Source: Dehalococcoidia bacterium (GTDB lineage Bacteria > Chloroflexota > Dehalococcoidia > Dehalococcoidales > Fen-1064). Taken from it: DNA of 5,595 nucleotides. Shown one piece after another: positions 3,347 through 5,595 of the stretch. The translations under genes and the position numbers were made by a program. Location: assembly GCA_003153075.1 (NCBI GenBank), contig PMBW01000266.1, forward strand, positions 1 to 5,595, given 5' to 3'. Numbering within the stretch: the stretch's first letter is position 1; each line of letters opens with the position of its first letter. The notes under the pieces were generated by a model, which was given only the letters and a program-made list of their open reading frames with translations, made no database searches and was not told the DNA's origin.

Positions 3347-3970
3347 CTAATTGACATTGATGTATAGAAATACCAGGGTGCCCCACTCATCGCCGGCTAC
3401 CACCGTATACATGCCGGAAGTCAGGGGAGTTAATTGAATTCCATTCGGGTAAGTTCCTTTGACTGTTTCGGTGGCTGACATCGAAGTCGGTGACGCTAGA
3501 TCGCCGCCGGGCATGATAGCTGCATTGCTGCTATCGGGAAGAAAGTCGTATCCGGTTATCAATCTGATTAATTGTGGACAGGGAACTGCTCCAAATAATG
3601 CTAGCGGAGTCCCCTCCGAAATGTTCCGGGCATCATAGCGTCCCTGGAACACTGCTACGCCAAACGGTAGCGCATTAATATTCGGGCAGGCCCCGATGGT
3701 TAGGTCGTGAACACCCCAATTTGCTGCAGCGGCTACATTGTTGTTCGTGGAGAGTGTGTTGTACTCACTGATATTAATCTGGAGCGGTTCGCCCGAAGTT
3801 ATCGTGTCCGCATTTACAGTGACTTGGAGCCGTAATCCATTCACCGATTGTACTGTTGTTGTCAGTGTTGCGCTTGTTGTCTCAGTATTTGTTTGCGCAC
3901 AGCCAGTCATCAACACCAACACCAGAACGAAAAACGTTGATATGATATATAATCCACCCTGTATTCTCAT
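3347..3970 (-). CDS. Secreted lipoprotein of unknown function (beta-rich)
   Basis: The 207-residue protein starts with a hydrophobic signal segment (residues 7-22) and a lipobox LMTGC, with Cys24 as the lipid-modified residue. It should be anchored on the outer face of the membrane. A short Thr/Ser-rich linker (26-40) leads into a beta-strand-rich domain. Recognisable stretches are SGEPLQINISEYNTLS (59-74), LPFGVAVFQG (101-110) and the terminal GMYTVVAGDEWGTLVFLYI (186-204). Cys95 and Cys131 could form a disulfide. I recall similar lipoproteins, with an FG-AIFQG motif and a closing YTVV-GDEWG motif, in Dehalococcoidia; their function is not known to me. The start overlaps the preceding reading frame by ATGA (3970-3967), and no strong Shine-Dalgarno sequence is present. 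Translation may therefore be coupled to the remnant SRAP frame upstream, or weak. Confidence 0.85.
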   Translation of the reverse strand: MRIQGGLYIISTFFVLVLVLMTGCAQTNTETTSATLTTTVQSVNGLRLQVTVNADTITSGEPLQINISEYNTLSTNNNVAAAANWGVHDLTIGACPNINALPFGVAVFQGRYDARNISEGTPLALFGAVPCPQLIRLITGYDFLPDSSNAAIMPGGDLASPTSMSATETVKGTYPNGIQLTPLTSGMYTVVAGDEWGTLVFLYINVN

Positions 3971-4541
3971 AGTAATTTAATCTCGGTCAGGTCTTCATAT
4001 TGGAAGGGAGCCATCACTTCCGGAACATTCGTATTTCTGGACTTGCTTGATAGCAATCGAGAAACCGGGAAGGCTTCCATTTCGCCTTGATCATAGGGTA
4101 CCAATATCGATGCAGAGTCCGCCATGTTAAAATCGCCGCTGATCCACTTTTTCTCATCTTCTTGCCTCAAGATTACTGGCATTCTTTCTTTTGAATTGTG
4201 TATTCGAACTAATAGGGGTTAGCTTGGGCAGTTACTATAGAAAATGTATTGAGGGTTTTCCCTTTCTCTTTATCTTCCCAGGTATCCCAGATCCCGGCCA
4301 TGGCAAATGCCTCTCGATTTTTTAATCTGATGTGGAAAGGATATTTTTTGTTATTCTACTCGTACCATTCATAAAAACCACCGGTAAGTACGAGGCACCG
4401 CTTGTTTCTAATAGAATCGCTATAAGCTGGTTTAATGTTTACCGTCTCGGATCTGGCATTGAGGGTTCTGAGTTTTATCTTGTTTGCCTCGGCGTCATCT
4501 TTTTCCCGCAGATTTTTCAAGTTCAAGATTAGTTTTGAGGC
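3967..4541 (-). pseudogene. Broken SRAP (SOS response-associated peptidase, YedK/HMCES-like) gene
   Basis: Intact SRAP proteins crosslink abasic sites in single-stranded DNA through Cys2 and are about 200-230 residues. Here the minus strand encodes, in order, LNARSET (4463-4443, catalytic Asn region), GFYEW (4382-4365, catalytic Glu), a frame ending in TFSIVTAQANP (to 4215), then RIHNSKERMPVIL (catalytic His) and EMEAFPVSR near the C-terminus. Three lesions are visible. An amber codon sits at 4358-4356, right after GFYEWYE. A frameshift of two extra bases (or one lost) lies at 4214-4213 between ANP and LVRIHN. The N-terminal 70-80 residues, including Cys2, have no room before the MarR stop at 4583 and are not found. 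The last 71 codons (ATG at 4182) are still open, and their TGA overlaps the lipoprotein ATG. Confidence 0.88.
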
Positions 4542-4582: not shown

Positions 4583-5032
4583 TTAAGAAGGAGTGTATTT
4601 TTCAGCTTTAGCAATTATAGTTTCCAACATGGAAATTAATAGTTGACGTTGATCCTCTGATAAACTTGACATGATTGTTTTTACCGATGTTATTTTCTTA
4701 ATTTTATTGTAGGTGTTTAAACCTTTTTTTGTTAATTCAAATCTTAATTGGTTAGATTTAGGTGTCGCTCTTACCTTTTTCACCAACCCATCCTTTTCCA
4801 TGAGGGTTACTTGCATGGACAGAGTATTGATTCCTCTGTCAGTATTTTTTGCCAGTTCTGCAAGAGTTGCCTTTTCCCCTAGTTTATAGACAATGATGAG
4901 CGTATTGGCTTGTCTGGGAGAAATGTGATAAGGTCTCAACTCCCTTTGTCTCGCTTGAAACATTAAATGTCTTGCTTTACCCAGTAAATATCTTGCGTAC
5001 AGATTACTATCCCGAGAGATTATTTCCGGCAT
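4583..5032 (-). CDS. MarR-family transcriptional regulator
   Basis: This 149-residue protein has the usual MarR length. N-terminal and C-terminal helices (about 8-32 and 115-145) form the dimer interface. The winged helix-turn-helix covers ATLAELAKNTDRGINTLSMQ (55-74) as the recognition unit, MEKDGLVKK (78-86), and the wing up to RFELTKKG (97-104). ISPRQANTLIIVYKLG (37-52) and the ending MSSLSEDQRQLLISMLETII (121-140) resemble the MarR regulators next to reductive-dehalogenase genes in Dehalococcoides, from memory. The start has GGAG ten bases upstream (5046-5043). The gene is markedly AT-rich compared with the nitroreductase and synthase (one 60-base stretch is 22% GC by hand count), which suggests separate ancestry. 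It diverges from the promoter at 5171-5199, so it probably controls that leader and gene as well as itself. The ligand is unknown. Confidence 0.9.
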   Translation of the reverse strand: MPEIISRDSNLYARYLLGKARHLMFQARQRELRPYHISPRQANTLIIVYKLGEKATLAELAKNTDRGINTLSMQVTLMEKDGLVKKVRATPKSNQLRFELTKKGLNTYNKIKKITSVKTIMSSLSEDQRQLLISMLETIIAKAEKYTPS

Positions 5033-5125: not shown

Positions 5126-5155
5126 AGTATAATTGAAATGGCCGGCAGTAATCAA
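5126..5155 (-). promoter_or_regulatory. Promoter of the MarR gene
   Basis: On the minus strand TTGATT (5155-5150) is followed after 18 bases by TATACT (5131-5126). The predicted transcript starts near 5119, about 85 nt before the MarR ATG. Its -35 is only 15 bp from the -35 of the opposite promoter, so one bound protein could block both. Confidence 0.5.
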
Positions 5156-5170
5156 CGTTTTTAATGATAC

Positions 5171-5202
5171 TTGACAAAGGTCAAAACTGGTAGTATACTG
5201 CC
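5171..5202 (+). promoter_or_regulatory. Strong divergent promoter with two inverted repeats
   Basis: TTGACA (5171-5176), a 17-base spacer and TATACT (5194-5199) form a near-consensus sigma-70 promoter, the best in the window, with a start near 5206. Two dyads overlap it. TTGAC-N4-GTCAA (5171-5184) covers the -35. A 14-bp site GGTAGTATACTGCC (5189-5202, one mismatched pair) covers the -10. Both are plausible operators for the neighbouring MarR protein; the choice between them is inference. Confidence 0.72.
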
Positions 5203-5216
5203 AATTAATTTATAAC

Positions 5217-5255
5217 ATTCGATATTGAATGCGATATTAGATTCTATCTTGAATG
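5217..5255 (+). repeat. Three tandem 12-mers forming two ATTC-N6-GAAT dyads
   Basis: CGATATTGAATG (5220-5231), CGATATTAGATT (5232-5243) and CTATCTTGAATG (5244-5255) sit head to tail; the second and third match the first at 9 and 10 of 12 positions. The same stretch also contains two dyads, ATTC-N6-GAAT, at 5217-5230 and 5241-5254, exactly 24 bp apart. They lie at about +12 to +50 of the rightward transcript, a position suited to a repressor that binds cooperatively. Confidence 0.5.
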
Positions 5256-5361
5256 TTGTTAGTTATTTGGCCTTAGTTCATTTTAAACTGACAGGCGACA
5301 AATCTCATTTTTTATATATTTTTAATAAATAATTGGAGCTGAATTTTAAGCGAATACCCGT

Positions 5362-5496
5362 TTGAGACTGGCCCTGTCCTAAATGATTCAGGGTACTGAG
5401 AGCTTCGTGGTTGGACTCACAGCTAAGTTCCGTTGTCGTGGCCTCCTACGACACGAGCCTTGTACCAATTTATATTAATGACTCGGCCAGTCTCAA
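5362..5496 (+). ncRNA. Structured leader RNA with 12-bp closing stem and three-way junction
   Basis: A perfect 12-bp stem TTGAGACTGGCC/GGCCAGTCTCAA (5362-5373 with 5485-5496) encloses further helices. CCCTG/CAGGG (5372-5376 with 5389-5393) competes with two pairs of the closing stem. A long helix begins GGTAC/GTACC (5392-5396 with 5462-5466) and continues after a TGA bulge as GAGCTTCGTG against CACGAGCCTT. It opens into two hairpins: GGACT/AGTTCC with one bulge (5413-5431, loop CACAGCTA) and TCGT/ACGA (5436-5451, loop GGCCTCCT). By hand count 5361-5500 is 48% GC against 23% before (5281-5340) and 17% after (5521-5580), the usual mark of a folded RNA in AT-rich sequence. It does not match TPP, SAM, cobalamin, lysine, T-box or tRNA signatures as I know them. 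A C4-type antisense RNA, processed from the leader of its own target mRNA in phages, is the closest idea I have, held weakly. The fold is well supported; the function is not. Confidence 0.7.
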
Positions 5497-5513
5497 TTGA
5501 AGAAATCTAAATG

Positions 5514-5544
5514 TTCAAAGACAATTATTTGAAACTTATTCAAA
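5514..5544 (+). promoter_or_regulatory. Mutually exclusive hairpins between the structured RNA and the start codon
   Basis: TTCAAA (5514-5519), TTTGAA (5528-5533) and TTCAAA (5539-5544) let the middle element pair with either neighbour, giving two competing 6-bp hairpins with loops of 8 or 5 bases. A further TTGAA at 5497-5502 could also pair with the first element. The stems are AT-only except for one G-C pair, so stability is low. They end 11 bases before the purine-rich ribosome binding site. Confidence 0.35.
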
Positions 5545-5569
5545 ATACAAAAAATAAAGGAAGGTTAAT

Positions 5570-5595
5570 ATGAATTTAAACGAACTGCAAAAGAA
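5570..5595 (+). CDS. Start of a rightward gene, product unknown
   Basis: ATG at 5570 opens eight codons (MNLNELQK) before the window ends. The start is convincing because AAAGGAAGG (5556-5564) lies five bases upstream, in an A-rich unstructured stretch. The eight residues are too few to name a family. The gene follows a promoter and a leader of about 365 nt, so its expression is likely controlled both by the divergent MarR protein and by the structured RNA. It is the natural candidate for the target of this control region. Confidence 0.6.

Follow-up and report, generated by a model that had tools for sequence, protein, structure and literature searches.

A divergent copy of a dispersing, uncatalogued structured-RNA family in a MarR-linked leader of a Dehalococcoidia bacterium

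RESULTS

The MarR-linked leader and its folded RNA

The window, by which we mean the whole 5,595-nucleotide stretch of Dehalococcoidia bacterium DNA analyzed here (contig PMBW01000266.1), contains a MarR-type regulator gene and, divergent from it, a long leader that precedes a gene cut by the window end. The features of this region are as follows.

4583-5032, minus strand: MarR-type regulator gene, divergent from the leader (open reading frame and homologues)
5171-5199, plus strand: promoter, TTGACA-17-TATACT
5217-5230, strand undefined: palindrome ATTCGATATTGAAT, near the transcription start, a candidate MarR operator
5362-5496, plus strand: divergent copy of the RNA family described below (model match 5364-5494)
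5559-5564, plus strand: Shine-Dalgarno-like GGAAGG
5570-5595, plus strand: start of the downstream gene (MNLNELQK...), cut at the window end after 8 full codons

The initial annotation had described a near-consensus promoter followed by about 365 nt of untranslated sequence and a well-placed start codon, and this description holds: the promoter has 11 of 12 consensus bases, and the leader runs from ~5206 to the ATG at 5570, carries the Shine-Dalgarno-like sequence shortly before it, and contains no convincing gene. It is likewise clear that a GC-rich island lies within the leader, with 53% GC at 5350-5449 compared with 25% at 5250-5349 and 31% at 5450-5549, and that the closing stem is a perfect one of 12 bp, in which TTGAGACTGGCC (5362-5373) pairs with GGCCAGTCTCAA (5485-5496). 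The predicted fold of 5361-5497 reaches -54.4 kcal/mol against a shuffle mean of -33.8 (z -5.43), and none of 200 shuffles was as stable. Since the opposite strand folds almost equally well (z -5.06), the fold alone does not give the strand, which is provided by the relatives of this RNA and the orientation of their genes.

Homology searches with the MarR-type protein returned 43 further homologues at E 1e-5, three of them (P0002 to P0004) 81-86% identical, and several of which carry PF01047, the MarR name being one taken from a source; the only Pfam match of the window protein itself is PF25212, below its cut-off. An alignment of 40 sequences (A1) led to five loci, L001 to L005, in two fen MAGs named 'Dehalococcoidia bacterium'. 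In nhmmer comparisons of the window leader (5150-5595) with these loci, L001 matched beside its MarR gene (E 1.7e-15), L002 matched at a second place distant from its MarR gene (E 1.2e-8), and L005 matched over the promoter part only (E 0.00018). Comparable promoter blocks precede the divergent gene in L001, L002, and L005, and, by eye, the leaders of L001 and L005 have similar palindromes at the same place just past the promoter; the palindrome, recurring as it does in MarR-linked leaders, may be a MarR operator. The RNA lies between promoter and gene in L001 and the window, whereas the MarR-linked leaders of L002, L003, and L005, where the solute-binding-protein gene is present, and that of L004 are without it. 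By analogy with L001, L002, L003, and L005, the gene at 5570 perhaps encodes a family-5 solute-binding protein; when the fetched loci were searched for a full-length protein related to MNLNELQK, the one match obtained looked unrelated. In L001, the stretch after the RNA resembles, by eye, the 3' half of a second copy.

A structured-RNA family with a double pseudoknot

A DNA search of the two fen MAG genomes found six strong copies in one genome and two in the other, plus five weak matches (E 0.18-5.3). The L002 copy, used as the query for a DNA search across the class, had matches in 15 of 294 genomes. The window RNA belongs to a previously uncatalogued family of structured RNAs of ~130 nt with no match in Rfam 15. 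In its intact form, a long closing stem, P1, surrounds a double pseudoknot and a hairpin, P2. The core helices are P3 (GGGG/CCCC), PK (CCAGGG/CCCUGG), and P5 (CCCG/CGGG), with PK crossing both P3 and P5, and nearly invariant letters lie within GGGGAAA, CCUCCCGUG, and GUAAUC.

This fold was first suggested by an alignment of 18 copies (A3), with P1 modeled as 14 pairs. Double-sided changes were present in 19 of the 31 pairs of A3, and 93.1% of its cells were paired compared with 30.8-61.4% for slid structures; of five shuffle measures, one (further pair types) was equaled in 29 of 500 shuffles and the other four in none. Two larger alignments, A4 (78 copies) and A5 (69 copies outside model building, found and aligned with the model R2), gave the same picture. 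Double changes occurred in 26 of 31 pairs in A4 and 29 of 31 in A5, the paired cells amounted to 92.6% and 95.1% (33.6-60.3% and 39.5-56.6% for slid structures), and the double-change cells numbered 316 and 279 compared with 78.9 and 78.2 in shuffles that ignore relatedness. A4 and A5 were fitted to models that hold P1, P2, P3, and P5 without PK, and PK is therefore the least biased test of covariation; it is paired in 98.1% of cells in A4 and 95.1% in A5, with C-G to U-A and A-U to G-C exchanges in both sets. Covariation among homologues, the check proposed in the initial annotation, is thus strong, and the claim of a highly folded, unassigned RNA in a long leader is upheld.

The competing idea that homologues might conserve the 31-aa reading frame at 5383-5478 instead of the stems found no support. 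A start codon stands at the corresponding column in 1 of 78 copies, the window copy itself, and the aligned stretch holds stops in 43 copies and is open in 35, so we rejected this small ORF. Frames of at least 25 codons occur somewhere inside the element in 52 of the 78 copies, with no fixed place among those checked, and we take them to be chance. A hairpin CUCC/GGAG after P3 was set aside by eye because one subtype lacks the GGAG.

The loci fetched comprise the copies listed by the DNA search of the two fen MAG genomes and the class search with R1, and part of the additional copies from the order-wide search, among the matches listed. One search took 73 of the 78 loci L071 to L148 plus the window; L082, whose copy holds an N, was left out, as were L110, L122, L133, and L137, which are repeat copies or the same sequence in another genome.

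The window copy as a degenerate member

The elements of the RNA in the window are as follows.

5362-5373, plus strand: P1, 5' strand of the perfect 12-bp stem
5388-5393, plus strand: PK, 5' strand, 5 of 6 pairs kept
5396-5422, plus strand: P2 hairpin CTGAGAG...CTCACAG, 3 of 3 modeled pairs kept
5434-5453, plus strand: hairpin TGTCGT...ACGACA, private to the window copy
5458-5463, plus strand: PK, 3' strand
5485-5496, plus strand: P1, 3' strand

The window copy scores 76.0 bits with the model R1 and 48.1 bits with R2, which is low for a copy present in both training sets; the nhmmer match of the bare window leader to L001 supports membership independently of R1 and R2. While the outer 12-bp stem is perfect and 11 of the 14 modeled P1 pairs are kept, P3 retains none of its 4 pairs and P5 only 1 of 4, and the private hairpin occupies the place of the P3 3' strand and the P5 5' strand of other copies. 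Judged against 22 nearly invariant positions, derived from 69 reference copies with the window and eight low-scoring copies left out, the window copy keeps 11, the fewest among the 78 aligned copies (the next lowest keeps 14). By intact P3 and P5 helices and the invariant core, it is a degenerate relative and not a canonical member. The loss of P3, most of P5, and half of the invariant positions indicates that the copy has probably decayed, with the outer stem persisting, and with its core degenerated, the RNA may here amount to hardly more than a stable hairpin in the leader; alternatively, it could be a working subtype and not a decayed one. The same losses explain the fate of the three-way junction described in the initial annotation, which is present in the minimum-energy fold of the window but differs from the fold of the family.

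Distribution

At E 0.01, R1 matched 28 of the 393 class genomes searched. R2 matched 12 of 350 genomes in a sample of the phylum, 11 of which had already matched in the class search; the twelfth (G409) is weak at 29.1 bits. In the order that contains the fen MAG, inferred to be Dehalococcoidales, 63 of 151 genomes matched at E 0.001. In the samples searched (class, phylum sample, and order), the family is thus nearly confined to one order of the Chloroflexota; filters were stricter whenever more than 40 genomes were searched, with loss of weak matches. The two richest genomes have 16 and 15 copies at E 0.001, and 16 and 17 at E 10, where two of the 17 stand at E 0.87 and 1.86. Three of the genomes (G015, G051, and G100) are presumed, from their gene content, to be Dehalococcoides.

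One contig of a viral collection, IMGVR_UViG_3300033150_002262, carries a copy (L149:5350-5482, minus strand, 83.5 bits). Among the viral contigs, two patterns of the family core led to this same single contig and the stem pattern of the window had no matches; none of the viral contigs searched for the window MarR protein encodes it. A blastn search of phage and plasmid records with the window leader gave no match.

Gene context of the copies

Gene context was determined with a home-made gene caller for 145 distinct copies, 2 of 147 aligned copies having been dropped as duplicates. For the 105 copies with both neighbors called, 58 lie between two genes in the direction of the RNA, 28 between divergent genes, 14 between converging genes, and 5 between two genes that run against the RNA. 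A downstream neighbor was called for 134 copies and is sense in 113 and antisense in 21. The divergent gene is always at least 191 nt away in the 28 divergent cases, while in 27 of the 58 co-directional cases the upstream stop codon is within 60 nt, so that the RNA looks intercistronic there.

Clustering of 108 of the 113 sense genes, those within 700 nt and of at least 60 aa, gave groups of 31, 12, 10, 7, 6, and 4, four pairs, and 30 singles. Representatives alone were named, the other members being placed by single-linkage blastp: family-5 solute-binding proteins in the group of 31, the B12-dependent ribonucleotide reductase NrdJ in that of 12, TAT-exported 2Fe-2S subunits like those of molybdenum hydroxylases in that of 10, radical-SAM proteins in that of 7, and oligopeptide/nickel-type permeases in that of 6. 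One pair is a reductive dehalogenase and one single is ModA, and the N-termini of others suggest TRAP, ModB-like, methyltransferase, and corrinoid proteins. A protein alignment of 28 downstream genes gave nothing informative.

Terminator-like sites follow 17 of the 145 copies compared with 8.6 in mononucleotide shuffles; with so few, a terminator switch is not general, and a built-in terminator was rejected as the general mechanism. In the three presumed Dehalococcoides genomes, the copies either come after a gene or have a terminator immediately behind them. In L079 to L081, a terminator directly follows the copy. One genome (G115) has five copies, of which three precede TAT 2Fe-2S genes resembling those of molybdenum hydroxylases and another precedes a ModB-like gene, and a search of G115 for the Moco riboswitch gave no match.

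Comparison with known RNA families

The initial annotation did not recognize a standard riboswitch class in the leader, and this was borne out, as an Rfam 15 scan of the window leader gave no match up to E 5, C4 antisense RNA (RF01695) included. Nor did any family reach its cut-off at 23 relative loci, two of which repeat others. For the part of these loci scanned up to E 10, RF_site3 touches the L074 copy at E 7.3, with 20.9 bits where the cut-off is 50, and six other weak matches all lie outside the RNA copies. Molybdenum hydroxylases, molybdate transport, and B12-dependent enzymes are gene kinds that the downstream genes of the family share with the Moco (RF01055) and cobalamin (RF00174) riboswitches. 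The family copies scanned are, however, without an Rfam match, and both riboswitches were rejected as its identity: of 10 member genomes, 8 have Moco matches and 5 have cobalamin matches above the cut-off, all at other places.

The HDV-like ribozymes have a double pseudoknot topology with a hairpin between the crossing strands. The family shares this arrangement but has an outer P1 that closes the whole, and the HDV families of Rfam gave no match to the copies scanned. ERIC and BOX elements are intergenic, dispersed structured repeats with many copies per genome, ERIC being of similar size. Like these and MRSC-65-2, a candidate selfish element (Narunsky et al. 2024, PMC11109978), the family is intergenic, with many copies per genome, a long terminal stem, and covariation. 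MRSC-65-2 is described as one long stem, however, whereas the family has helices that cross, a core that is fixed, and a bias toward sense orientation to genes.

The same article (PMC11109978) also presents the rdhA motif WRC-34-1, an orphan cis-RNA candidate immediately upstream of rdhA with 18 representatives, mostly from Dehalococcoides. The new family is likewise an orphan cis-RNA candidate of the same bacteria, two of its copies directly precede a reductive dehalogenase gene, and some of its other loci have rdhA-like genes further downstream, judging from N-termini. Compared by position with the description of WRC-34-1, with which the family may yet prove identical, most copies of the family precede other genes, and the six copies in the three presumed Dehalococcoides genomes are not directly before rdhA. 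Among the open-licence papers listed in literature searches, none describes the family in its title or the beginning of its abstract, and term look-ups in PMC8632094 and PMC6429828 gave no hits.

Dispersal within genomes

The family seems to disperse as a complete unit within genomes. The copies of L105, before rdhA, and L114, before a radical-SAM gene, are 99.2% identical within one genome, and further pairs (L103/L107, 96.7%; L174/L177, 97.4% and 96.8%) are nearly so, with no flank similarity found in any of them. Identity in these pairs stops at or a few bases from the P1 ends, which implies either that the unit was inserted or that gene conversion was limited to it; copies of the unit with sharp ends thus occur at unrelated sites. 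A further ~25-27 bases upstream are common to the two copies of L105, and likewise to the two of L106. Other within-genome pairs also have similar flanks, as gene duplication would predict. For 49 of the 145 copies the nearest relative lies in the same genome, and for 96 it lies elsewhere, the downstream labels in this comparison being crude. At L168:2196-2708, three copies stand side by side in one direction, and at L174:8246-8690, there are two.

An NrdJ query found 53 matching genes in 11 genomes, with 8, 10, and 8 in G191, G202, and G213 (loci among L221 to L250), some adjoining reductive-dehalogenase-like genes. The RNA is present at 13 of the 30 matches fetched as loci; those without it differ, by eye, in their upstream sequence, so no clean empty site is found among the 30. 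At L235, whose copy is that of L111 (G070:C1, ~1583683-1585184), nrdJ is immediately preceded by a stretch like the 3' half of the RNA, and a full copy lies ~400-500 nt upstream; by eye, the arrangement looks like an insertion of DNA between two copies of the RNA.

DISCUSSION

We consider 5362-5496 of the window to be a divergent, probably decayed copy of a family of dispersing, cis-acting leader RNAs, possibly an orphan riboswitch, and give this reading a probability of about 0.5. The RNA would be transcribed together with the downstream gene and act on it in cis at the RNA level, by affecting translation or mRNA processing and not through a terminator of its own. Most plausibly, it would be a control module of a riboswitch-like or protein-binding kind that spread as one unit. 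The window copy stands in a MarR-linked leader before a gene that may encode a solute-binding protein. The position of the copies argues for cis action, given that 113 of 134 run in the same direction as the next gene, the downstream genes fall into recurrent groups, and in the 28 divergent cases the upstream gene is at least 191 nt away. A riboswitch-like role is a candidate suggested by position and fold, and the option of a new riboregulator raised in the initial annotation survives in a family with strong covariation and no Rfam 15 match. Against the reading as a whole stand the very mixed downstream genes, which no single ligand explains, the 21 of 134 copies with an antisense downstream neighbor, and the 14 between converging genes; the copies in the presumed Dehalococcoides genomes, which follow a gene or precede a terminator, are no less compatible with a free RNA or a 3' end, and copying within genomes also fits a plain repeat.

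The family could instead be mainly a non-autonomous dispersed repeat of the ERIC or BOX kind, with P1 as its ends, a fold that serves mobility or protects mRNA ends, and only incidental effects on genes. We regard this as possible though distinctly the less probable account. It would fit the up to 16 copies per genome at E 0.001, the near-identical copies without flank similarity found and with identity ending at P1 in several pairs, the nearest relatives in the same genome for about a third of copies (49 of 145), the tandem copies at L168 and L174, and the presence of the RNA in some MarR-linked leaders (L001 and the window) and its absence from others (L002, L003, and L005). However, compensatory change in all helices together with fixed unpaired core letters implies selection on the RNA itself, the strong sense bias and recurrent downstream gene families also speak against it, neither an empty site nor a target duplication appeared among the loci compared, and gene conversion may instead have yielded the near-identical copies. 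The dispersal and the leader function may also be two sides of a bacterial SINE-like RNA, an unlikely account in which a compact double-pseudoknot unit ending at P1 would reach new sites by copying, perhaps via reverse transcription, and would there be put to use as a preformed sensing leader of genes for transporters, B12-dependent reductases, molybdo-enzymes, and dehalogenases.

It is also unlikely that the element is an independent small RNA, or the 3' end of an upstream transcript, acting in trans. The 14 of 105 copies between converging genes and the terminators directly after the copies in L079 to L081 would suit such an RNA, but terminator-like sites follow just 17 of 145 copies (8.6 in shuffles), and 113 of 134 copies are sense to the next gene. 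The C4-like antisense RNA and retron ncRNA that the initial annotation had also entertained are highly improbable: they share with the family only the general look of a long-stemmed folded RNA, RF01695 gave no match in the leader up to E 5, and there was no reverse transcriptase among the proteins scanned, six from the window and ten encoded downstream of relatives.

These results describe a new covariation-supported RNA family without an Rfam 15 match in what we infer to be the order that holds the organohalide respirers, and the family offers more than 100 leaders for testing. They raise the question of what an RNA that precedes family-5 binding proteins, B12-dependent ribonucleotide reductases, and molybdo-enzymes senses or binds, as well as that of how a structured RNA unit gets copied between unrelated places of one chromosome. 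If the family is both regulatory and mobile, it would represent a regulon built by the dispersal of an RNA control module.

Elsewhere in the window, 3967-4526 (minus strand) holds the apparent remains of a SRAP-type gene, with a weak SRAP match at 3967-4182 (minus strand; 22.8 bits against a cut-off of 27.1) and an ORF at 4356-4526 that, by eye, may be another piece of the same kind of gene.
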